Shown here in pieces: positions 37,574-52,728 of a stretch of 64,000 nt of DNA (positions within the stretch are counted from its first letter, which is position 1; each line of letters starts with the position of its first letter). The position numbers and the translations under genes were made by a program. Location: NCBI GenBank assembly GCA_026417975.1, contig JAOACD010000009.1, positions 310,001-374,000 on the forward strand. Reading direction: 5' to 3'. This stretch comes from Melioribacter sp. Lineage in GTDB: Bacteria; Bacteroidota; Ignavibacteria; Ignavibacteriales; Melioribacteraceae. The notes beneath the pieces are model-generated. The model was given only the letters and a program-made list of their open reading frames with translations, did no database searches and was not told the origin of the DNA.

Positions 37574-39436
37574 ATGAGAACTAAATGTATGTTAGATAAC
37601 TTAAATATTTCTCGTTTTCTTGTTGTAATTTTATTTTGTTTTTTAACCTTCCGGTTTTATGCTCAGCCATCTGGTGGTCCTTATGGTCCTATTTACCAAG
37701 TTTATGAATTACCTAAAGTTTCTGGTAAAATTTACTTTGTTTCTCCAGATGGAAAAAAGGAAAATTCAGGTGAATCACTTTCTGCTCCAACTACAATTGA
37801 ATCTGCTATCGAAAAAGCAAAAACAGGCGATGCAATAATTCTAAGAGGTGGAATTTATAGAACAGGAAATTTAGTTTTTAATCAAGGAATAATTATCCAA
37901 CCTTATAAAGATGAACAACCAATTTTTAAAGGTACATATATAGCAAAAGAATGGAAAAGTTTGGGAAATGGTTTGTGGATAACAAAATGGGATAGATTAT
38001 TTCCATCAAAACCTGCTGATTGGTGGATGCGCGAAAGAGAAGGCAAAAAAACACCTCTTCATAAATTTAACAATGACATGGTTTTTATTAATGGTAAATT
38101 TTTGCAGTCTGCTGGATGGGAAGGTGAAGTTGATGAAAACTCTTTTTACATCGACTATGATAGAGGAATAGTATATATAGGGACAGATCCAACTAATAAA
38201 CTTGTTGAAATAACAGCCTTTGATGCTGCATTTATTCGTACTACTAAAGAAGTTCATGGTAAAGTTTCTGATAAAAAGGGACCAAAGATTAGGGGGATAA
38301 AATTTACTCAGTATGCCTATAGAGCAATTGAAATTGAAGGAACAGAGCCAGAAGGACCAGCAGATGAAAAAACTTTTGGAAAAGATGTGGTTGGAACTTT
38401 AATAGAAAATTGTGAAATATCATTTTGTTCAAGGGTGGCTGGTTATTTAAGAGGAGATAGTTTAGTAATCCGACACTGTAAAATAAGTGATACAAGCACA
38501 GAAGGAATTTATATTATTAGTTCAAATGATGTTTTATTAGAAAAAAATATCTTTACTAGAAATAACATTGAGAAAATTACTGGATATTACCCAGCTGCGG
38601 TTAAAATTTTTAATCAATGTCATCGTGTGACTTGTAATGATAATTTGGTTATTGATTTACCCTATTCTAATGGCATTTGGTATGACGTAGGAAATGTTGA
38701 TGGAGTTTTTATTAACAACTGGGTAGAAAATGTAGGAAATAATAGAACCCAATTAAATGTTAACCAACCTTGGCCAAGTGATAATGGGTTTTTCTTCGAA
38801 ATTTCTAAAGGAGTAGTATGTGCAGGGAATGTTTTTGTTAACTGTGATCATGGTATTTGGATATTGAATAGTTCTGATGCAAAAATTTTTAACAACACTT
38901 TTATTAATAGTACTGCTTGTATTTCTCGAAACGCAAGAGTTGCAGCAGGTGACCACTTTGGTTGGCATGCAAGTACTGGACCAGATGTTGATAAAAGAGA
39001 AGGACATATTTTTGTTAATAACTTAATGTATGGAGATGAAAATTTTAATAGACCACTCCTTTATGTGTGGCAGCCTGCAATCTTGTGCGAAAAATTAAAG
39101 AAACCTCAGCTTAAAATGCTCGATTATAATATTTATATTCGTCAATCTAATCTGAATAATGACATACTGATCCTATGGAGCCCGGTAAATAATGAAAAAT
39201 GCCTAGCAGAATTAAAGTCTTTAGAAGAGCTAAGAAACCTACTTCCTGAATTTTCTGGTAATTGCAAATATTATTCTGATTATAATTTCCCGATATTTAA
39301 ATCTATTGAACTAAAAGACTTTCATCTACTTAAAGTAATAACTAACTTAGAGAAAGGAATGGCCTTGCCTAAAGAGCTAAAAAAATTTATTCGCAGTAAT
39401 AAAACTTATATAGGTGCTTATCCATTACTAAATTAA
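37574..39436 (+). CDS. Secreted right-handed parallel beta-helix protein
   Basis: N-terminal signal peptide; YFVSPDGKKENSGESLSAPTTIESAIEKAKTGDAIILRGGIYR; repeated N/D-rich helix turns. Confidence 0.85.
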   Translation: MRTKCMLDNLNISRFLVVILFCFLTFRFYAQPSGGPYGPIYQVYELPKVSGKIYFVSPDGKKENSGESLSAPTTIESAIEKAKTGDAIILRGGIYRTGNLVFNQGIIIQPYKDEQPIFKGTYIAKEWKSLGNGLWITKWDRLFPSKPADWWMREREGKKTPLHKFNNDMVFINGKFLQSAGWEGEVDENSFYIDYDRGIVYIGTDPTNKLVEITAFDAAFIRTTKEVHGKVSDKKGPKIRGIKFTQYAYRAIEIEGTEPEGPADEKTFGKDVVGTLIENCEISFCSRVAGYLRGDSLVIRHCKISDTSTEGIYIISSNDVLLEKNIFTRNNIEKITGYYPAAVKIFNQCHRVTCNDNLVIDLPYSNGIWYDVGNVDGVFINNWVENVGNNRTQLNVNQPWPSDNGFFFEISKGVVCAGNVFVNCDHGIWILNSSDAKIFNNTFINSTACISRNARVAAGDHFGWHASTGPDVDKREGHIFVNNLMYGDENFNRPLLYVWQPAILCEKLKKPQLKMLDYNIYIRQSNLNNDILILWSPVNNEKCLAELKSLEELRNLLPEFSGNCKYYSDYNFPIFKSIELKDFHLLKVITNLEKGMALPKELKKFIRSNKTYIGAYPLLN

Positions 39437-39522: not shown

Positions 39523-39551
39523 TTGACATAATATTTTTTATCTATTATAAT
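39523..39551 (+). promoter_or_regulatory. Consensus sigma70-type promoter of ilv-leu operon
   Basis: TTGACA (39523-39528), 17-nt spacer, TATAAT (39546-39551). Confidence 0.9.
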
Positions 39552-39563
39552 TGTACAAGAGTT

Positions 39564-39725
39564 ATGAAAGACAATAACAAACATATTGCATTGTTAAAAG
39601 GTCTCGAAGAGCAACATAGGCTCTCAGGTCTAAACTATACAAGAAAGAAAATAGGCACATCTTTAGATATACTTCCTCTAGGGATTACAATCCTAATTAT
39701 CAATCTAATTATAATTCTAGGCTAA
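39564..39725 (+). CDS. Putative Ile/Leu-rich leader peptide of ilv-leu operon (53 aa)
   Basis: ATG...TAA: MKDNNKHIALLKGLEEQHRLSGLNYTRKKIGTSLDILPLGITILIINLIIILG; 13 Ile/Leu in the last 19 residues; just after promoter, upstream of ilvD; too short for the ORF track. Confidence 0.85.
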   Translation: MKDNNKHIALLKGLEEQHRLSGLNYTRKKIGTSLDILPLGITILIINLIIILG

Positions 39726-39809
39726 TATTTATTAGTCAATCCCTAAAATTTTTTTATGAGTTTCAAAATTTAGGGATTGACTAAGTCCCTAAAGTATATC
39801 TAAAGATGT
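39657..39809 (+). promoter_or_regulatory. Attenuator-like region with nested and alternative inverted repeats
   Basis: ACATCTTTAGATATACTT (39657-39674) pairs perfectly with AAGTATATCTAAAGATGT (39792-39809); TTAGTCAATCCCTAAA (39732-39747) pairs perfectly with TTTAGGGATTGACTAA (39769-39784); alternative pairings TAGGGATT/AATCCCTA and TTTAGGGA/TCCCTAAA. Confidence 0.82.
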
Positions 39810-39834
39810 TTAAAATAAAAACGAGAGGTTTAAG

Positions 39835-41517
39835 ATGAGATCGGATTTAATAAAAAAAGGTTTTGATAAAGCTCCTCACAGAAGCCTTCTTAAGGCTACA
39901 GGAGTAATAAAATCTGATGATGATTTTAATAAACCATTCATCGGGATTTGCAATTCTTATATAGATTTAATACCAGGTCATGTACACCTCCAGGAATTCG
40001 GAAAAATAATAAAAGAAGAAGTGCGTAAAGCTGGTGGAGTTCCATTTGAATTTAATACCATTGGTGTAGATGATGGTATAGCAATGGGACATATAGGAAT
40101 GCGATTTTCTTTAGCAAGTAGAGAATTAATTGCTGATAGTTTAGAAACTGTTGTAGAAGCTCATAGACTTGATGGCTTGATATGTATTCCAAACTGCGAT
40201 AAAATTGTGCCTGGTATGCTCATGGGAGCTGCAAGAGTTAATATTCCTACTGTTTTTGTTTCTGGTGGACCGATGAAAGCAGGTTATACCCCTTCAGGCG
40301 AAGTTGTAGATTTAATTTCGGTATTTGAAGGAGTTGGCCAATTTTCAGCAGGAAAAATAGATGAAAAGAAATTAAAAGAGTTGGAAGATTATAGTTGTCC
40401 TACTTGTGGTTCTTGCTCTGGAATGTTTACTGCAAATTCAATGAACTGCTTAATGGAAGCATTAGGAATGGCTTTGCCTGGTAACGGAACAATACTTGCA
40501 GTTGATCCTAAAAGACATGAACTTGCTCGCCAAGCAGCACATAAAATTATGGAATTAATTAAACTTGATTTAAAGCCAAGAGATATTATTACTCGTGAGT
40601 CTATATTAAATGCTTTTGCTTTAGATATGGCAATGGGAGGAAGTACAAATACAATTCTTCATACCATTGCAATTGCAAACGAAGCAGGTATAGAATTTAA
40701 ACTTGAGGAGATTAATAAATTATCAGAGAAGGTACCTTATTTATGTAAGGTTTCGCCTGCTACAAAGTTTGTTCATATAGAAGATGTAGATAGAGCAGGT
40801 GGTGTTTCAGCAATATTAAAAGAACTTTCCAAGCTCGATGGTGTTCTTAATCTTTCTTGTCCAACTGTAACAGGAAAAACTTTGGGAGAAAACATAAAAG
40901 ATGCTGAGATTAAAGATAGGAATGTAATAAGAACAATAGATAATCCATTTCGAAAAACTGGTGGTTTGGCTGTCTTATTTGGTAACTTGGCTCCCAAAGG
41001 TTCAATAGTGAAAACTGGAGCGGTTGAAGAAAATATGTTAGTGTTTAAGGGACCAGCAATTGTATTTAATTCCCAAGATGAAGCAATAGAAGGAATCAGA
41101 AGTGGTAAGGTAAAACCTGGTCATGTTGTTGTTATTCGTTATGAAGGACCAAAAGGCGGTCCAGGAATGCCTGAGATGTTAGCTCCAACTAGTGAAATTA
41201 TGGGAATGGGTTTAGGTGATAAAGTGGCATTAATTACAGATGGAAGATTTTCTGGAGGAACGAGAGGTGCATGTATTGGGCATATATCTCCTGAGGCAGC
41301 AGAGCGAGGCCCTATTGCAGCTCTAAGAGATGGTGATATTATTTCGATTGATATTCCTAATTATTCATTAAATGTAGAGTTAAGTGACGAAGAAATCCAG
41401 AAAAGACTAAGTGAACTTCCTAAGTTTAAACCAAAAATCAATAATGGGTATTTAGGACGTTACTCTAGAATGGTTACATCTGCTCATACAGGAGCAATTT
41501 TAAGTTTGCCAGAATAA
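39835..41517 (+). CDS. ilvD: Dihydroxy-acid dehydratase
   Basis: [45 protein letters not shown]. Confidence 0.98.
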
Positions 41518-41539: not shown

Positions 41540-43258
41540 ATGAATTCAAGAAAAAAAAGTATGACCGGAGCCGATATATTTTTTGAGTGTCTTAGGCGTG
41601 AGGGTGTCGAATATATTTTCGGTTACCCAGGTGGTGCTGTCTTAAAGATTTATGAAAAACTTTACGATATTGATTTTCTCAAACATATACTTGTTCGTCA
41701 CGAACAAGGGGCAACCCATATGGCAGAGGGTTATGCTAAGGCCACAGGAAAAGTAGGAGTCGTTTTAGTAACATCGGGACCAGGAGCAACTAATACAGTT
41801 ACAGGAATAGCAGATGCCTATATGGATTCTGTGCCTATTGTTGTTTTTACAGGTCAGGTACCAACTCATCTAATTGGAAATGATGCTTTTCAGGAAGCTG
41901 ATATTTGTGGAATTACAAGACCTATTACTAAACATAATTTCTTAGTAAGAGATGTTTCTGAACTTGCAACTACAATTAAACAAGCGTTTTATATTGCTTC
42001 TACTGGGAGACCTGGACCTGTAGTTGTTGATTTGCCAAAAAATGTTATTAATAGTATAACTGAATTTGACTATCCTGATAAAATTGAATTAAGAGGATAT
42101 AAACCAAGAGTTCATGGGAACCAAAATCAAATTAAAAAAGCTGCTATGATGATTCAAAAGTCGAAGAGACCTTTGCTTTATGTAGGTGGTGGTGTTATAA
42201 TGTCAGGAGGACATCGTGAATTATATCTTCTTGCAAAAGAAAATAATCTTCCTGTTACAATGACTCTTCAAGGTTTGGGAGCTTTTCCAGGTTCAGACCC
42301 TCAGTCTCTTGGAATGTTAGGAATGCACGGAACTTATTGGGCTAACCAGGCAGTTAATAATTGTGACTTATTGATTTCTCTTGGAGCTAGATTCGATGAT
42401 AGAGTGACAGGTAAAATTGAAACTTTTGCAACAAAAGCCTACAAAATTCATGTCGACATAGATCCAACATGTATTGATAAAAATGTTATAGTTGATTTAC
42501 CAATAGTTGGAGATGTTAAACATGTTATGGCAGAATTAGCAGCAGAAATTTCTGAAAAACCAGATGTTACAGAATGGTGGGAACAAATTCATGCCTGGAA
42601 AGAGGAATGTCCACTTGAGTATGATATGTCTGATGGAAGATTAAGAGCACAATACATCATCGAAAAATTATCTGATCTTACTAAAGGTGATGCTATTGTA
42701 GTTACAGATGTAGGACAGCATCAAATGTGGGTTGCTCAGTACTATAAGTTTAATTATCCTAGAACTCATATTACTAGCGGTGGCTTAGGCACAATGGGTT
42801 TTGCACTTCCTGCATCTATTGGAGTAGCTTTTGCTGTAAAAGATAAGCCGATTTTGTGTATAACTGGCGATGGTGGCTTCCAAATGAATATGCAAGAACT
42901 TGCAACTGCAGCGTATCATAAACTCCCAATAAAAATTTTTATTATAAATAATTCTTTCCTTGGAATGGTTCGTCAATGGCAAGAATTATTTCATGCAGAA
43001 AAATATAGCTTTACCGACTTATCTGATAGCAATCCAGATTTCGTTAAACTAGCAGAAGCATTTGATATTAAAGCTTATTCTGTAAGTAACATTAGCGATG
43101 TAGAACCTGTGCTTAAAGAAGCTTTGTCTTATAACGAAGGACCAATACTCGTTGATTTTAGAGTAGTTAAAGAAGATATGGTCTTTCCAATTGTCCCAGC
43201 CGGGGCTTCAATAAGTGATATGATTATTCGCAGATTAGATCCAAAGGAGATGATGTAA
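41540..43258 (+). CDS. ilvB: Acetolactate synthase large subunit
   Basis: GYPGGAVLKIYEKL; HMAEGYAKATGKVGVVLVTSGPGATN; GDGGFQMNMQEL. Confidence 0.97.
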   Translation: MNSRKKSMTGADIFFECLRREGVEYIFGYPGGAVLKIYEKLYDIDFLKHILVRHEQGATHMAEGYAKATGKVGVVLVTSGPGATNTVTGIADAYMDSVPIVVFTGQVPTHLIGNDAFQEADICGITRPITKHNFLVRDVSELATTIKQAFYIASTGRPGPVVVDLPKNVINSITEFDYPDKIELRGYKPRVHGNQNQIKKAAMMIQKSKRPLLYVGGGVIMSGGHRELYLLAKENNLPVTMTLQGLGAFPGSDPQSLGMLGMHGTYWANQAVNNCDLLISLGARFDDRVTGKIETFATKAYKIHVDIDPTCIDKNVIVDLPIVGDVKHVMAELAAEISEKPDVTEWWEQIHAWKEECPLEYDMSDGRLRAQYIIEKLSDLTKGDAIVVTDVGQHQMWVAQYYKFNYPRTHITSGGLGTMGFALPASIGVAFAVKDKPILCITGDGGFQMNMQELATAAYHKLPIKIFIINNSFLGMVRQWQELFHAEKYSFTDLSDSNPDFVKLAEAFDIKAYSVSNISDVEPVLKEALSYNEGPILVDFRVVKEDMVFPIVPAGASISDMIIRRLDPKEMM

Positions 43259-43259
43259 T

Positions 43260-43790
43260 ATGTTACACGTAATCTCAGCATTAGTAGAAAATAAATTTGG
43301 CGCATTCAACCGTGTTGTTACAATGTTTAGCGCCAAAGGATATAATATTCATTCTATTTCTATTGGAGAGACTGAAGATCCAACAATTTCAAGAATGACC
43401 ATTGTAACTGAAGGTGAAGATAAGGTTATTGAGCAAATTGTAAAACAATTAAACAGATTGATTGATACAATTAAAATTGTTGATCTAACCTATCAGCCTA
43501 AAGTTCAAAGAGAATTACTTTTAATTTCTGTAGGATATCAAAAGGGAACGAGATCTGAAATTATTGACATATGTGAAATTTTTAGAGGAAATGTTGTTGA
43601 TATTAATAACAAAACATTAATGCTTGAAATAACTGGACCCCCAGAAAAAATTGATGCAGCAATTAATGTGCTTGAACCTTATGGAATAAAAGAAATTGCG
43701 AGGTCTGGACTTGTAGCATTAAGAAGAGGCGAGCAAATAAGAAAAAACAAAGGAGAAACAGAAACCAATAAACCAGGAGAATTAAAATGA
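43260..43790 (+). CDS. ilvN: Acetolactate synthase small subunit
   Basis: ACT domain, [29 protein letters not shown]. Confidence 0.95.
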
Positions 43791-44779
43791 AAATTTATTA
43801 TGATTCAGACGCAAACCTTGATATACTTAAAGGTAAAAACTTAGCAGTAATTGGATATGGAAGTCAAGGCCATGCACATGCCCTTAATTTGAAAGATAGT
43901 GGAATGGAAGTAGGTGTTGGTTTAAGAAAAACAAGTGCAAGATGGAAAGAAGCTGAAGATGCTGGATTGAAAGTTTTTACGGTAGAAGAAGCTGCAAAAT
44001 GGGGTGATGTAATAATGATTTTACTCCCCGACCAAAATCATAAAGAAGTTTATGAAAATGAAATTAAACAGCATTTAACCGAAGGGAAAGCTCTTGCTTT
44101 TGCTCATGGATTTAATATTTTTTATAAACAAGTTATTCCTCCAGAAAATGTTGATGTAATTATGATTGCTCCTAAAGGACCTGGGCATCTTGTTCGTCGA
44201 ACTTATCAGCAAGGCAGCGGTACTCCATGTCTAATTGCTATACATCAAGATTATACAGGAAAAGCAAAAGATATTGCTCTTGCATGGGCTAAAGGAATAG
44301 GAGGTACACGTGCTGGAGTAATAGAAACCACGTTTAAAGATGAAACAGAAACAGATTTGTTTGGTGAACAAGCTGTTCTTTGTGGAGGCTCTGCTGAATT
44401 AGTAAAAGCAGGCTTCGAAACATTGGTAGAGGCTGGTTATCCACCAGAGCTTGCTTACTTTGAATGTATGCACGAATTAAAATTAATTGTTGACCTATAT
44501 TATGAAGGCGGACTAACAAGAATGAATTATTCCGTTAGTGATACTGCAGAATATGGAGGAATGACTAGAGGCCCAAAAGTTATTAATGCAGAAACCAAAA
44601 AAATTATGAAACAAATTTTGGAAGATATTCAATCAGGCAGATTTGCAGAAGAATGGATTAATGAAAATAAAAATGGTCAGCCGGTTCTTAAAAAACTAAG
44701 GGAAGAAAATAAAAATCATCTTATTGAAAAAGTTGGAGCTCAGCTCAGAAGTATGATGAGCTGGTTAAGTAATAAATAA
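43787..44779 (+). CDS. ilvC: Ketol-acid reductoisomerase
   Basis: [42 protein letters not shown]. Confidence 0.98.
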
Positions 44780-44802
44780 GTTAAGAAATTTAGGAGTTTG
44801 TA

Positions 44803-45897
44803 ATGTTTAGTATAACTCTTCTTCCTGGTGATGGAATTGGTCCAGAAGTAACATCTGCAGCTGTCAAAGTCTTAAAAACAGTTGCAGAAAAATTTAATAT
44901 AGAATTTAATTTTAAAACAGAATTAATAGGTGGAGCTTCTTACGATAAATATTCAACACCATTGACTGATGAAGTCTTAAGTCAGTGTTATAGTTCTGAT
45001 GTAGTATTTCTTGGAGCTGTGGGAGGTCCTAAATGGGAAAATTTGCCACATCATCTTAAGCCTGAGGCTGCACTCTTAAAATTACGTAAAGCCTTGGGAC
45101 TTTATGCAAACCTTCGTCCTGCTAAAATTTATAACTCAATGCTTTCATATTCCTCTTTAAAAGAAGAGGTACTTAAAGGAACTGATGTCTTAATTGTAAG
45201 AGAATTAACCGGTGATGCATATTTTGGTGAACCTAGAGGATATGACGAGCAGAAAGGCTTTAATACAATGATTTATACTAAAGAAGAAGTAGAAAGAATT
45301 GCTCGAAAAGCATTTGAACTTGCAAGATTTAGAAATAAAAAAGTTACTTCAGTAGATAAGGCAAATGTTCTTGAAGTCTCTCAATTTTGGAGAAAAGTAG
45401 TTATTGATGTTCATAAAGATTATCAAGATGTAGAATTAAATCATATGTATGTTGATAATGCAGCAATGCAAATTGTACGCTACCCAAAACAGTTTGATGT
45501 AATATTAACTTCAAATTTGTTTGGGGATATTTTAAGCGATATTGCTGCAATGATAACTGGGAGTTTGGGCATGCTTCCTTCTGCAAGTTTAGGCTCTAAA
45601 TATGCATTGTATGAACCTGTTCACGGAAGTGCACCAGATATTGCCGGCAAAGGTATTGCAAATCCGATTGCTGCAATTTCTTCTGTAGCTATGATGCTTA
45701 AATATTCTTTTCAAATGGATAAAGCAGCAGAATTAATTGAAAATTCAATTGAAAATACACTTACTAAAGGTTATAGAACTAAGGATATTTATAAGGAAGG
45801 AGATAAGCTTGTTTCAACTGATGAGATGACAGATAAAATTATCGAGGAGTTTGATAAACTATTTGCAAAAGAGGCTATTAATGTTTTTACGCTTTAA
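44803..45897 (+). CDS. leuB: 3-isopropylmalate dehydrogenase
   Basis: LLPGDGIGPEVT; TSNLFGDILSDIAAMITGSLGMLPSASLG. Confidence 0.97.
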   Translation: MFSITLLPGDGIGPEVTSAAVKVLKTVAEKFNIEFNFKTELIGGASYDKYSTPLTDEVLSQCYSSDVVFLGAVGGPKWENLPHHLKPEAALLKLRKALGLYANLRPAKIYNSMLSYSSLKEEVLKGTDVLIVRELTGDAYFGEPRGYDEQKGFNTMIYTKEEVERIARKAFELARFRNKKVTSVDKANVLEVSQFWRKVVIDVHKDYQDVELNHMYVDNAAMQIVRYPKQFDVILTSNLFGDILSDIAAMITGSLGMLPSASLGSKYALYEPVHGSAPDIAGKGIANPIAAISSVAMMLKYSFQMDKAAELIENSIENTLTKGYRTKDIYKEGDKLVSTDEMTDKIIEEFDKLFAKEAINVFTL

Positions 45898-45985
45898 TTT
45901 TTTTACAATACATAGCTAAGTAAAATTAATTGGGAGTAAGAAAAGTAAATAAACATTCTAAGAAAGAGAAAAATAAGAGGTAATT

Positions 45986-47563
45986 ATGGAGCCGACTAGA
46001 ATATTGATATTTGATACAACATTAAGGGATGGCGAACAATCTCCTGGTGCATCATTAAATGTTCACGAAAAATTAGAGATAGCACATCAGCTTGCAAAGC
46101 TGAATGTAGATGTAATTGAAGCAGGTTTCCCAATTTCTTCACCAGCTCAGTTTGAAGCAGTTAAAAGAATTGCCGAAGAAGTAGACTGTGTTATAGCAGC
46201 TTTAGCTAGAGCAAACGAGAAGGATATTAAAGCAGCTGCTGATGCGCTTTCTCCAGCTCGAAGAAAAAGAATACATACATTTGCAAGCACTTCCGATTAT
46301 CATATATTAGGGAAATTTTCTCATGAAAAATATGGTCGGAATCTTGAGGAAAAAAGAAAAACTATTTTGAAAATGTCTTATGATTCGGTTGCTTATGCAA
46401 AGACTTTTACTGATGATGTAGAATTCTCAGCTGAAGATGCAGGCAGAACAGATATAGGTTATCTTGCAGAAGTTGTAGAAGCAGCAATTGAGGCTGGGGC
46501 TACTACAATCAATATTCCTGATACAACTGGTTATACATTGCCATTTGAATTTGGCAACAAAATTGCAGAATTAAGAAAAAGGGTTAAAAATATAGATAAA
46601 GTTGTTATTAGTGTCCATTGTCATAATGATTTAGGGTTAGCTGTTGCAAATTCTTTGGCTGCAATTCAAAATGGAGCTCGTCAAGTAGAATGCACAATAA
46701 ATGGTATAGGTGAAAGAGCAGGTAATGCTTCTCTTGAAGAAATAGTTATGATTCTAAATGTTAGAAAAGACTTGTTAAATTATTACACAAATATTAACAC
46801 AAGAGAAATTTATAATACAAGTAAAATGGTCTCTGCTTTTACTGGATTACTGGTACAACGCAATAAAGCTATCGTAGGAGAAAATGCCTTTTCGCACGAA
46901 TCTGGGATTCATCAAGATGGAGTACTTAAGAGCCGAGAAACTTATGAAATAATGACACCAGAAAGTGTTGGTATTCCAACAAGTAAAATTGTATTGGGAC
47001 GTCACTCTGGTAGACATGGATTGAAAGTTAGATTGCAGCAATTAGGTTATACAGTTACAGATGAAGAGCTTCAAAAAATTTATGATGCTTTTATAGAATT
47101 AGCAGATAAAAAGAAAGAAGTTTTTGATGATGACCTGAGGATGCTAATGGGCGATGAAATTCAAAAGAAAGATGAAATATATGAATTAGAATACTTGCAT
47201 GTAAATGCTGGAACTAATCTTATTCCAAATGCTGTTGTTAAAATTAAAGTGGGAGATAAAATTCTTGAAGAATCTGCTACAGGAGATGGCCCTGTAGATG
47301 CAGTATTTAATGCTATTGAAAGAGCTCTTTCAATTAAATCCGAACTTGAATCATATCAAGTTAGATCGGTAACAGCAGGAAGAGAAGCAATGGGAGAGGT
47401 GATAGTTCGAATAAGGAGTGGAAGTAAGTCTTTTATGGGACGTGGAATTTCAACTGATATTATTGAGGCTAGTGCAAAAGCATACTTAAATGCTCTAAAT
47501 CAAAAAGAGCAATTTGTTAAACAAGAAGAAGCTAAAGTAGAAAAAATTTCAGAAGTAATATAA
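45986..47563 (+). CDS. leuA: 2-isopropylmalate synthase
   Basis: FDTTLRDGEQSPGASLNVHEKLEIA; HCHNDLGLAVANSLAAIQNGARQVECTINGIGERAGN. Confidence 0.97.
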   Translation: MEPTRILIFDTTLRDGEQSPGASLNVHEKLEIAHQLAKLNVDVIEAGFPISSPAQFEAVKRIAEEVDCVIAALARANEKDIKAAADALSPARRKRIHTFASTSDYHILGKFSHEKYGRNLEEKRKTILKMSYDSVAYAKTFTDDVEFSAEDAGRTDIGYLAEVVEAAIEAGATTINIPDTTGYTLPFEFGNKIAELRKRVKNIDKVVISVHCHNDLGLAVANSLAAIQNGARQVECTINGIGERAGNASLEEIVMILNVRKDLLNYYTNINTREIYNTSKMVSAFTGLLVQRNKAIVGENAFSHESGIHQDGVLKSRETYEIMTPESVGIPTSKIVLGRHSGRHGLKVRLQQLGYTVTDEELQKIYDAFIELADKKKEVFDDDLRMLMGDEIQKKDEIYELEYLHVNAGTNLIPNAVVKIKVGDKILEESATGDGPVDAVFNAIERALSIKSELESYQVRSVTAGREAMGEVIVRIRSGSKSFMGRGISTDIIEASAKAYLNALNQKEQFVKQEEAKVEKISEVI

Positions 47564-47575
47564 AGGGTGTTATAA

Positions 47576-48871
47576 ATGGGAATGACTATAACAGAAAAAA
47601 TACTTGCAAAGGCATCTGGTAGAAAAAGAGTAGAACCAGGTGAAAATATATGGTTAAATGTTGATGTGTTAATGACTCATGATGTTTGTGGTCCACCAAC
47701 TATAGAGATATGGAAAAGAGAATTTGGAGATAAAGCAAAAATATGGGATAAGAAAAAACTTGTAATTTTCCCTGACCATTATATATTTACTAAAAATCCA
47801 CAAGCAAATAGGAATGTAAATATTCTTAGAGAATTTGCTAAAGAGTATGATTTACCAAATTACTATGATGTTGGTACCGAAAGGTATAAAGGCGTATGTC
47901 ATATTGCATTAGCAGAAGAAGGATATAATTTACCAGGAAAAGTTTTATTTGGCACAGATTCTCATACTTGTACTTCTGGAGCTTTTGGAATGTTTTCTAC
48001 TGGTGTTGGAAATACAGATGCTGCTTTTATACTGGGGACTGGAAAAATTTGGGAAAAAGTACCCGAATCCTTAAAGTTCATTTTTGAAGGCGAACTACCG
48101 CATTACTTAACAGCAAAAGATCTAATCCTTCAGGTGCTTGGCGATATAACTACCGAAGGTGGTACTTATAGAGCATTAGAGTTTGATGGAGAAGCAATAT
48201 ATTCTATGCAAATGGATGAAAGAATGACCTTAACCAATATGGCTATTGAAGCAGGTGCGATGAATGGAATTATCAAAGCTGACGAAATAACAGAAAAGTA
48301 TGTAAGGGAACGAACAAATGAGCCATACGAAATTTTTGAAAGCGATCCAGATGCAAAATACAGGGCAATCTATAAATACAATGTAGAAGAAATTGAACCT
48401 CTTGTTGCTAAACCACATAGCCCTGATAATAGAGATACAGTTAGAAATGTTCAGGGGACAAAACTTACTAAATGCTATATTGGCTCTTGTACAGGTGGTA
48501 AGTTAACAGATTTTGTCAATGCTGCTAAAATTATTTTTGGTAATAAAGTTAAAGTACCAACATTTATCGTTCCTGCAAGCACTTATGTTTATAATCAACT
48601 AGAAGTAGAAACAATAAATGGAGTATCTTTAAAACAAATATTTGAGGATGCAGGATGCGTAATAGCTCCATCTTCATGTGCAGCATGTCTAGGAGGTCCT
48701 GCAGATACTGTAGGAAGAGCTCAAGATGGTGAGGTAGTAATCTCTACAACAAATAGAAATTTCCCTGGAAGAATGGGAAGCAAGAAATCTGAAGTTTATC
48801 TTGCATCACCTTTTACTGTTGCTGCTTCTGCAGTTACTGGCGTAATCACAGATCCTAGAGAATTTTTATAA
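47576..48871 (+). CDS. leuC: 3-isopropylmalate dehydratase large subunit (homoaconitase/archaeal-type family)
   Basis: FGTDSHTCTSGAFGMFSTGVGNTDAA; YIGSCTGGKLTDF; 431 aa short form. Confidence 0.95.
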   Translation: MGMTITEKILAKASGRKRVEPGENIWLNVDVLMTHDVCGPPTIEIWKREFGDKAKIWDKKKLVIFPDHYIFTKNPQANRNVNILREFAKEYDLPNYYDVGTERYKGVCHIALAEEGYNLPGKVLFGTDSHTCTSGAFGMFSTGVGNTDAAFILGTGKIWEKVPESLKFIFEGELPHYLTAKDLILQVLGDITTEGGTYRALEFDGEAIYSMQMDERMTLTNMAIEAGAMNGIIKADEITEKYVRERTNEPYEIFESDPDAKYRAIYKYNVEEIEPLVAKPHSPDNRDTVRNVQGTKLTKCYIGSCTGGKLTDFVNAAKIIFGNKVKVPTFIVPASTYVYNQLEVETINGVSLKQIFEDAGCVIAPSSCAACLGGPADTVGRAQDGEVVISTTNRNFPGRMGSKKSEVYLASPFTVAASAVTGVITDPREFL

Positions 48872-48888
48872 AAAAATGGGAATTAATC

Positions 48889-49446
48889 ATGGAAAAAATT
48901 GTAAAAGGAAAAGCATTTGTATTAGGTGATAATATTGACACCGATCAAATAATTCCGGCTGAACATTTAGTATATAGCTTAAGTGATCCTGAAGAATCAA
49001 AAAAGTATGGTCATTTTGCACTCTCTGGTGTACCCCTTAAAAATTCAGGATTGCCAGATGGAGGAATTCCATTTATTGATGGTGATAACTATCAATCGAA
49101 ATATAACATTATTATTGCTGGTTCTAATTTTGGTTGTGGTTCTTCAAGAGAACATGCCCCCTTTGCTCTTCAAATGGCTGGAGTTAAAGTAATAGTTGCA
49201 GAATCTTATGCAAGAATTTTTTATCGCAATTGTGTTGATGGTGGATTTGCAATACCATATGAAACACCTATCAAATTAAATGACAAAATTAAAACTAATG
49301 ATGAACTTGAAATTGATTTAAATAGTAACACTCTAAAAAATTTAACAACAGGTGAAATATATAAATTAAATCCTCTTGGAGATATTTTACCTATTATTGA
49401 AGCAGGAAATATTTTTGAATATGCAAGAATGAATAACATGATTTGA
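48889..49446 (+). CDS. leuD: 3-isopropylmalate dehydratase small subunit
   Basis: GDNIDTDQIIPAEHL; GSNFGCGSSREHAPFAL. Confidence 0.96.
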   Translation: MEKIVKGKAFVLGDNIDTDQIIPAEHLVYSLSDPEESKKYGHFALSGVPLKNSGLPDGGIPFIDGDNYQSKYNIIIAGSNFGCGSSREHAPFALQMAGVKVIVAESYARIFYRNCVDGGFAIPYETPIKLNDKIKTNDELEIDLNSNTLKNLTTGEIYKLNPLGDILPIIEAGNIFEYARMNNMI

Positions 49447-49481
49447 TAAGTCAAATTTAAAAATTAGCAAAGAGGTAAGAA

Positions 49482-51068
49482 ATGTTTATTGAAATATTTG
49501 ATACTACATTAAGAGATGGGACACAGGCCGAAGGCGTAAGCCTTTCAGTGCAGGATAAATTACTGATTGCGAAAAAACTAGATGAATTTGGTATTGATAT
49601 TATTGAGGGTGGTTGGCCTGGTAGCAATCCGAAAGACGAAGAATTTTTTAAACAGGCAAAGAATTTAAATCTAAGCCATGCTAAATTAACATCATTTGGC
49701 TCAACTGCTAGGTCTTTATCAGATATTGAAGGCGATTATAATCTAAATACACTTTTAAAATCAGAAACACCAATTATTACAATCTTTGGTAAAACTTGGC
49801 AATTACATTCTCAAAAAGCATTAGGACTTTCGGATGAAGAAAATGCAGAACTTATTTTCAAGTCTGTAAAATTTCTTAGATCTCATGTTGATAGAGTTAT
49901 ATTTGACGCTGAACATTTTTTTGATGGATATAAGGATAACCCAGAATTTGCAATGAAAATGCTTAAAGCTGCAGTAGAAGGTGGTGCTGATACTTTAGTT
50001 TTATGTGATACAAATGGTGGTTCACTACCAGAAGAAGTTTATAAAATAGTTTCTGAAGTTAAAAAGAATTTTAATTTAACAATTGGAATTCATGCTCATA
50101 ACGATGCTGAACTTGCGGTTGCAAATTCTCTTGCAGCAGTTAATGCTGGTGCTACTCATGTTCATGGAACTATAAATGGAGTGGGAGAACGATGTGGTAA
50201 TGCAAATTTATGCAGTATTATTCCAAATCTTCTTCTAAAATTAAATTATGAAACAAATCAGAAAAAAAATTTACAACAGTTAACATCATTATCAAATTAT
50301 GTATACGAATTAATGAATATTCATCCAAATACAAGAAGTGCTTACACAGGGAAATCAGCATTTGCTCATAAAGGCGGTGTTCATGTTAGTGCTGTAATGA
50401 AAGATAGTAGAATGTATGAACATATCCAACCAGAATTAGTAGGAAATAAGCAAAGAGTTTTAATTTCAGATTTATCTGGTCAAAGTAATATTAAGTATAA
50501 GGCTAAAGAAGTAGGAATTGATATTTCTGACGATAAAGAGTTAAGTAAGAGATTAGTTAATTATATAAAATCACTTGAATATGATGGCTATCAATTTGAC
50601 GGAGCTGAGGCTTCTTTTGAATTATTGTTTAGAACAGAAACTAATGAGTTTTCTCCATTCTTTAGACTTGTTGATGCAAAGGTGAATGTATTTTATGATG
50701 ATGATGGACACACATCATCCGAGGCTGTTTTAAAAATTGAAGTAAATAATGAAATAGAACATACAGCAGCAGATGGTAATGGACCAGTTAATGCACTAGA
50801 CTCTGCACTAAGGAAAGCATTACTTAGATTTTATCCTGAAATTGCTAATATAAAATTAGTTGATTATAAAGTTCGAGTTCTTGATGAAAAAGAAGGAACA
50901 GCTGCAAAAGTAAGAGTAATGATAGAATCAAGTGATGGAGTTGATACATGGGGAACTGTAGGAGTTTCTACAAATATTATCGAAGCAAGTTTTAAAGCAT
51001 TAAGCGATAGCATAAATTATTGTTTGTTTAAGAAGTATAGAAATAAACAAGAAGTTGCGAAATCATAA
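49482..51068 (+). CDS. cimA: Citramalate synthase
   Basis: IFDTTLRDGTQAEGVSLSVQDKLLIAKKLDEFGIDIIEGGWPGSNPKD, typical of the CimA branch of the IPMS superfamily. Confidence 0.93.
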   Translation: MFIEIFDTTLRDGTQAEGVSLSVQDKLLIAKKLDEFGIDIIEGGWPGSNPKDEEFFKQAKNLNLSHAKLTSFGSTARSLSDIEGDYNLNTLLKSETPIITIFGKTWQLHSQKALGLSDEENAELIFKSVKFLRSHVDRVIFDAEHFFDGYKDNPEFAMKMLKAAVEGGADTLVLCDTNGGSLPEEVYKIVSEVKKNFNLTIGIHAHNDAELAVANSLAAVNAGATHVHGTINGVGERCGNANLCSIIPNLLLKLNYETNQKKNLQQLTSLSNYVYELMNIHPNTRSAYTGKSAFAHKGGVHVSAVMKDSRMYEHIQPELVGNKQRVLISDLSGQSNIKYKAKEVGIDISDDKELSKRLVNYIKSLEYDGYQFDGAEASFELLFRTETNEFSPFFRLVDAKVNVFYDDDGHTSSEAVLKIEVNNEIEHTAADGNGPVNALDSALRKALLRFYPEIANIKLVDYKVRVLDEKEGTAAKVRVMIESSDGVDTWGTVGVSTNIIEASFKALSDSINYCLFKKYRNKQEVAKS

Positions 51069-52307: not shown

Positions 52308-52380
<73 letters not shown>

Positions 52381-52393
52381 CATAGGTATAAAA

Positions 52394-52466
52394 GCGGGAG
52401 TAACTCAGTTGGCAGAGTCACAGCCTTCCAAGCTGTTGGTCGCGGGTTCGAGTCCCGTCTCCCGCT
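52394..52466 (+). tRNA. tRNA-Gly (TCC)
   Basis: GCGGGAG/CTCCCGC acceptor; ACAGC-CTTCCAA-GCTGT. Confidence 0.95.
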
Positions 52467-52486
52467 CTAATTAAATAGGAATTCAT

Positions 52487-52654
52487 ATGGCTAAATCAAA
52501 AAATGTTCGTCAAATAATTACCCTAGAAAGTACGGCGGGAACTGGATATCGGTATACAACTACAAAAAATAAAAGAAATCATCCTGGACGTGTTGAATAT
52601 AAAAAATACGATCCAATAGTAAGAAAGCACGTAATCTTTAAAGAAACAAAATAA
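52487..52654 (+). CDS. rpmG: 50S ribosomal protein L33 (55 aa; below ORF-track cutoff)
   Basis: [55 protein letters not shown]; no cysteines. Confidence 0.95.
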
Positions 52655-52655
52655 T

Positions 52656-52728
52656 ACGTCAGTAGCTCAATTGGTAGAGCAGCGGTCTCCAAAACCGCAG
52701 GCTGGGGGTTCAAGTCCCTCCTGACGTG
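52656..52728 (+). tRNA. tRNA-Trp (CCA)
   Basis: ACGTCAG/CTGACGT acceptor; GCGGT-CTCCAAA-ACCGC. Confidence 0.95.

Follow-up and report, generated by a model that had tools for sequence, protein, structure and literature searches.

The branched-chain amino acid (BCAA) operon in a 64,000-nucleotide stretch of Melioribacter sp. DNA (the window, meaning the whole stretch analyzed) is preceded by a short open reading frame (ORF) with an Ile/Leu-rich tail. Judged from its sequence and that of its relatives, this ORF very probably encodes a leader peptide whose translation controls the ilvD-...-cimA operon by ribosome-mediated attenuation. An earlier note had put forward this reading from the window alone; the conserved ORF and frame, the Ile/Leu run, mutually exclusive covarying helices, and the position before the head gene of a BCAA operon all argue for it.

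Leader ORF and operon of the window

The leader and the operon comprise the following features.

39523-39551, + strand: promoter TTGACA - 17 nt - TATAAT, 12/12 match to the consensus
39564-39725, + strand: leader peptide ORF, 53 codons and stop, encoding MKDNNKHIALLKGLEEQHRLSGLNYTRKKIGTSLDILPLGITILIINLIIILG, without a clear Shine-Dalgarno (SD) sequence
39823-39828, + strand: SD sequence of ilvD, GAGAGG, kept across relatives in the alignment
39835-41517, + strand: ilvD, first structural gene (TIGR00110 and NF002068)
41540-51068, + strand: ilvB, ilvN, ilvC, leuB, leuA, leuC, leuD, and cimA, rest of the operon (NCBIfam matches)

The nine genes are arranged in the order ilvD-ilvB-ilvN-ilvC-leuB-leuA-leuC-leuD-cimA, and all had an NCBIfam match, with leuC and leuD recognized through subfamily models. 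The ORF begins 12 nt after the promoter and ends 109 nt before ilvD; its location between a consensus promoter and ilvD, its boundaries, and the encoded peptide agree exactly with what the earlier note had reported. The same is true of its residue counts, as read directly: 8 Ile and 5 Leu among the last 19 residues (13/19), with Val absent from the whole window peptide. Ile and Leu are among the products of the operon. From the promoter, transcription is predicted to start only ~6 nt upstream of the leader ATG. A promoter of the type TTGACA-17-TA..(A/T)T was present upstream of 48 of 52 leaders, with 12-30 nt between the end of the -10 element and the ATG. Named relatives by IlvD were Melioribacter roseus (MAG, 83%) and Ignavibacteriales/Ignavibacteria, which places the host most likely among the Ignavibacteriales.

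The leader is preceded by an ORF (37574-39436) that we take, from its translation, to encode a right-handed beta-helix-like protein, and this in turn by an ORF presumably encoding a comM-like ATPase. Three tRNA genes and an rpmG-like ORF (52308-52728) lie between the operon region and secE-nusG-rplK.

Distribution of the leader among relatives

Relatives were gathered by IlvD search, which yielded 58 distinct leaders of 46-60 codons. An equivalent ORF was found in almost all of these relatives, usually 96-146 nt upstream of ilvD; L033 was the only one among the closest IlvD matches without a leader, and the leader of L014 uses a GTG start. A covariance model of the 3' part of the leader matched 42/42 sampled genomes with this IlvD, a result that is partly by construction because most of these genomes were in the training set; matches outside the training set include G249, G028, G066, G004, G089, and G554. 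In seven genomes without this IlvD, the covariance-model search found no leader.

Genomes without this IlvD also gave leader matches where the operon starts with another first gene. The leader was located before ilvB in genus g54 (L117, L119-L122) and g57 (L118), and several of these loci retain an apparent stub of the ilvD start (GTGAGATCT). A class-wide DNA search (E<=10) gave largely noise, yet it turned up ilvB-headed leaders. G089 has two leaders, each upstream of an ilvB-like gene, one Val-rich (L170) and the other Ile/Leu (L169), and G004 has a leader upstream of leuB (L167). In G554 (L168), a GC-rich genome from another family of the phylum, a leader ending TILVLLISLVIITG precedes an acetolactate-synthase-type gene, with GGTCAATCCC..GGGATTGACC intact. 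These loci indicate that the leader is retained with the operon whether its head gene is ilvD, ilvB, or leuB. Matches from plasmid BLAST were confined to ilvD coding sequence.

Further leaders were observed in and around these loci. The Val-rich leader of G089 (SVLGITVVVSVNSLVVILN) is encoded on the minus strand of L170:1-1500 (ORF 1069-1218 of the reverse complement), before the second ilvB-like gene. Two genomes, G060 and G016, have copies of the leader upstream of the glutamate synthase gene gltB (L171:738-893 and L172:1178-1336); their BCAA runs are weakened and partly replaced by Pro/Thr/Lys. In G016, a pseudogenized piece of the ilvD start lies just downstream of the gltB leader, as if the leader and the 5' end of ilvD had been copied there. 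Leader ORFs with BCAA-rich tails also precede ilvD in Marinimicrobia (L044, L046, L048), KSB1 (L047), and L062. In the KSB1 locus, the CAATCCC/GGGATTG core is kept and the start hairpin is strong; L062 retains the architecture with an unrelated repeat sequence. Anaerolineae (Chloroflexota) ilvD loci (L049, L055, L057, L059, L061, L063, L070, and others) carry a different short leader, e.g., MNPSLFSLSLIVVVLAVLIIKDQFSVRMATVRVK, apparently an independent BCAA attenuator; a GC-rich hairpin and a T-run come after it in L049 and L057. In G080, the interval from the conserved leader to ilvB contains another short Ile-rich ORF (MPYTALTKSVVEKQHLTRFSPLVQNINIIIILSIIILSI; L119:1549-1668), a possible case of tandem attenuators. 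SAM riboswitches (RF00162) occur near the ilvD leader region in two relatives (L133:2739-2842 and L140:1750-1866).

Selection on frame, amino acids, and codons

All 135 gap runs inside the ORF in the leader alignment were multiples of three, compared with 54 of 298 past the stop codon, and the length of the tail differs among relatives by whole codons. Within the last 20 codons, the BCAA share was 71% in frame vs 35% and 2% in the other frames. In close pairs, pN/pS was 0.51 for the tail and 1.15 for the N-terminal half (simple counts, small samples), and the latter value suggests that the N-terminal half is without protein constraint. These results indicate that the leader ORF is conserved in frame and is not a chance ORF. 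The earlier note had proposed aligning the region upstream of ilvD as a check of its reading; the Ile/Leu run and the frame proved conserved in that alignment, and the N-terminal half unconstrained.

The family tails contain on average 7.4 Ile, 5.5 Leu, and 1.3 Val per 20 residues. Val is absent from only 11 tails and present in 47/58. The suggestion of the earlier note that Ile and Leu, not Val, are sensed thus fits the codons of the window peptide and does not extend to the family, in which most tails contain Val and one paralogous leader (L170) is Val-rich. Among tail Leu codons, 149/321 (46%) were CTA, the rarest Leu codon, compared with 9% in the ORFs of the window and 4.8% in a second reference set, ilvD from the loci that supplied the leaders. 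Part of this excess may come from the pairing of TAGGG. The Ile codons of the tails showed no rare-codon bias, and ATT predominates. The use of a rare Leu codon as a control codon has a parallel in enterobacterial leuL.

Competing helices in the leader RNA

The following pairing elements were defined in the leader RNA of the window.

39657-39686, + strand: segment 1, inside the ORF (codons T-S-L-D-I-L-P-L-G-I); folds, covariation, and arm-swap
39692-39721, + strand: hairpin P3, last Ile/Leu codons and end of the ORF; folds, and in relatives arm-swap and pair counts
39734-39747, + strand: segment 2 (AGTCAATCCCTAAA), with a nearly invariant core GTCAATCCC; leader alignment and pair counts
39769-39782, + strand: segment 3 (TTTAGGGATTGACT), partner of segment 2; 14-bp helix in folds, and covariation
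39784-39809, + strand: segment 4 (AGTCCCTAAAGTATATCTAAAGATGT), ~26 bp with segment 1, just upstream of ilvD; folds and covariation

The leader RNA of the window was far more stable than shuffled sequences (z = -6.33; 0/200). In its fold, the helix between segments 1 and 4 (1:4) encloses P3 and helix 2:3. The 5' part of segment 1 pairs with segment 4, and its 3' part TAGGGATT pairs with segment 2 or segment 4. In an arm-swap duplex test, each left arm was paired with the right arm of the same sequence and with those of other sequences. Own arms gave -16.2 kcal vs -11.0 kcal for foreign arms in 1:4, -18.7 vs -15.0 in 2:3, -9.6 vs -7.9 in 1:2, and -10.4 vs -7.4 in P3. Own arms were also clearly better for the start-region hairpin P1 and slightly better for a small segment 3 hairpin, and two negative controls were flat. 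Pairing-preserving double changes exceeded all 500 shuffles for each of 1:4 (63 vs 36.4), 1:2 (11 vs 4.7), and 2:3 with P3 (29 vs 11.6), in statistics that are inflated by the relatedness of the leader sequences. When the helix arms were slid, the fraction of paired cells in the named-structure counts dropped sharply. Unconstrained RNAalifold on the full alignment recovered helix 2:3 alone; the evidence on 1:4, 1:2, P3, and the start hairpin comes from arm-swap and, for the first three, also from named-structure counts. An earlier test of 1:4, which used a broad ORF window and shuffled partners, gave a mean z of -1.06 and was replaced by the narrower test; the broad window was blunt because GGGATT repeats also let segment 3 pair.

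Because helices 1:2, 2:3, and 1:4 share segments, 1:2 excludes both of the others, as is characteristic of a switch. That GTCAATCCC hardly varies can be attributed to the need for segment 2 to match segment 3 (GGGATTGAC) as well as segment 1 (GGGATT). The leader thus has the mutually exclusive helices expected of an attenuator, with segment 1 overlapping the control codons. Rfam searches for T-box and other cis-regulatory RNAs gave no match at the gathering score in the window leader or in the leaders of ten related loci, and for the window leader nothing sensible appeared even at E<=10; T-box or riboswitch identity was rejected on this basis.

Two other accounts of the element were weighed against this evidence. 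The nearly invariant GGUCAAUCCC..GGGAUUGACC might form the center of a riboswitch-like RNA that binds a ligand or protein, with the ORF secondary. The GTCAATCCC/GGGATTGAC core is indeed kept even in the GC-rich L168 of another family, beyond what simple pairing needs, and the copies before gltB have weakened BCAA runs (L171, L172). However, the dual pairing of segment 2 already explains the invariance, the Ile/Leu run, the frame, and the rare codons are conserved, and Rfam contains no match, which leaves a binding RNA very improbable. Least probable of all is a functional small membrane protein that merely happens to be located before ilvD. Its basic N-terminus and hydrophobic C-terminus, the last 20 residues of which are a plausible transmembrane segment, and the conservation of frame and hydrophobicity would suit such a protein. 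Against it stand the unconstrained N-terminal half, a tail varying by whole codons, a synonymous choice strongly skewed to CTA, the coincidence of these codons with covarying RNA helices, the way the element follows the head gene of the operon, and the lack of a Pfam or NCBIfam match for the window peptide; membrane-protein identity was rejected on pN/pS and codon bias.

Start-region hairpin in the N-terminal half

The 5' end of the ORF is base-paired in relatives: its first ~15 nt, in many cases with the start codon among them, form a duplex with nt ~61-75. The mean duplex energy was -13.8 kcal, compared with -9.05 kcal (sd 0.40) when the partner's codons were permuted, and at least one nucleotide of the AUG was paired in 41/52 leaders. 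In the window, this hairpin was weak (z -0.7; local fold z -1.09), and we therefore regard it as a family feature and not as a demonstrated part of the window leader. Such a hairpin could keep the polymerase waiting for the first ribosome, or close the start after that ribosome has passed. The earlier note had remarked that a 53-codon ORF is long and that its N-terminus is unlike a leader. The observation itself stands and can be explained for the family, where the N-terminal half is unconstrained as protein and forms an RNA hairpin.

Proposed mechanism and its readout

Under the attenuator reading, a ribosome would start a few nucleotides from the 5' end of the transcript and trail RNA polymerase. 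As long as charged tRNA-Ile and tRNA-Leu are in good supply, it would clear the Ile/Leu run, leaving segment 1 (codons SLDI..LGI) free for segment 4; helix 1:4 would then form just before ilvD, enclosing P3 and 2:3, and expression would be off. Upon shortage of Ile or Leu, the ribosome would stall at the first Ile/Leu codons, inside segment 1, and mask it. Helix 1:4 could then not form, 2:3 would still be possible, and the polymerase would continue into ilvD. Translation of the ORF, the direction of control, and the action of 1:4 mainly as a transcription terminator are what we infer from the sequences.

A ribosome-position scan of ilvD loci, in which a ribosome mask was set at successive positions and pairing was recomputed, is consistent with this scheme, within the crudeness of masks and equilibrium folding. 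The expected number of 1:4 pairs fell from ~10 to <1 with the A site ~66-54 nt before the stop codon, a position that corresponds to the first Ile/Leu codons of the tail, and recovered on both sides; the helix was strongly reduced over A-site positions ~72-42 nt before the stop. It was present without a ribosome or with a ribosome near the stop. Since starvation should remove 1:4 and the operon is biosynthetic, 1:4 would be the off state. In the family, the 8 nt past the segment 4 arm are U-rich (0.49-0.63, then mostly 0.2-0.35), and runs of at least 5 U after segment 4 occurred in 15/51 leaders vs 2.1 expected (maximum 6 in 200 draws). The loop of helix 1:4 is unusually large for an intrinsic terminator. 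In the window, segment 4 is followed by UUUAAAAU, which is not a good U-tract, and no terminator-like site was found in the window leader; termination there may therefore be weak, Rho-assisted, or replaced by another readout.

The alternative readout is translational: instead of acting on transcription termination, the leader peptide would govern how ribosomes reach ilvD, by altering base pairs between segment 4 and the ilvD ribosome-binding site. Segment 4 lies close to ilvD, with a median gap of 20 nt, and in several relatives its 3' part is able to base-pair with the SD region (e.g., CTGAAGATTA..TAATCTTTCAGAGG in L035); the window lacks a detectable intrinsic terminator. On the other hand, the own-vs-foreign preference of segment 4 for the SD was weak (-5.8 vs -4.6), U-tracts follow segment 4 in many relatives, and the predicted change in SD accessibility between states was inconsistent, going one way at 14 loci and the other at 9. 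In some relatives, segment 4 may pair with the SD region upon a modeled ribosome stall, which would be the wrong direction if translation were the readout; the modeled stall lowered SD access from 0.41 to 0.33, opposite to what control by starvation needs. Because the predicted accessibility moves inconsistently or the wrong way, an SD-based readout is disfavored and we consider it unlikely; as a general readout, SD sequestration by segment 4 was rejected on the inconsistent sign and the weak arm-swap signal.

Comparison with known attenuators

The logic of control codons, rare CUA Leu codons in leuL, and competing segments is familiar from the enterobacterial ilvGMEDA and leuABCD leaders, which differ from the Ignavibacteria leader in being 28-32 aa long with a 3:4 intrinsic terminator outside the ORF. 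The window peptide showed no relation to the enterobacterial leader families in Pfam and had no match in Pfam/NCBIfam; a single weak Apicomplexa match to a relative (E 0.07) was below its cut-off. The Staphylococcus aureus ilvD attenuator peptide, for which induction by Leu depletion and by leader mutations is reported (PMC5794164), is likewise an Ile/Leu-rich leader before ilvD of an ilv-leu operon with terminator/antiterminator alternatives. Compared by layout, it has 26 aa, its own ribosome-binding site, and a compact terminator with poly-U 52 nt after the stop, whereas the Ignavibacteria leaders have 46-60 aa, no clear SD, and a long-range helix that takes its 5' arm from the ORF itself. 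The Listeria Rli60 ilv-leu attenuator (PMC5864092) is also ribosome-mediated, located before ilvD, and built on alternative 2:3 and 3:4 hairpins, but it has a 13-aa peptide and a classical local terminator. The Corynebacterium ilvB-II uORF motif (PMC10272879), as far as the available part of that report goes, shares a BCAA-rich uORF, covarying stems, occurrence once per genome, and a position before a BCAA operon; it differs in its 15-17 aa and its local terminator stem P2 with a U-tract, and a start-region hairpin is not described in that part. Compared with all three systems, the Ignavibacteria leader stands apart in its length, the lack of a clear SD, the start-region hairpin, and a terminator-like helix in which ~100 nt separate the 5' arm, located in the ORF, from the downstream 3' arm. 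In the openly accessible literature searched, no leader-peptide attenuator was found for Ignavibacteria, although an earlier description may exist elsewhere; a flavobacterial transcriptome study mentions, in its available part, "strong clues" to such attenuation.

Significance

We tentatively suggest that these leaders might constitute a distinct attenuator of Ignavibacteria and neighboring lineages. Its ORF would lie at the 5' end of the transcript, with an N-terminal half that folds onto the start codon of the leader, so that only the pioneer ribosome senses and/or the polymerase pauses. The C-terminal half would supply the 5' arm of a long-range off-helix, with the conserved GGUCAAUCCC as switch, and the module would have been captured by gltB. 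Apart from this suggestion, the attenuator reading offers a concrete mechanism, open to test, by which Ignavibacteria would control the entire branched-chain pathway. A long, apparently protein-like leader can be explained by it as RNA sculpted at both ends, where the start region and the control codons both base-pair. The occurrence of the module before ilvD, ilvB, leuB, and gltB forms an evolutionary series, in which the movement of an attenuator and the change of its codon specificity may be followed.
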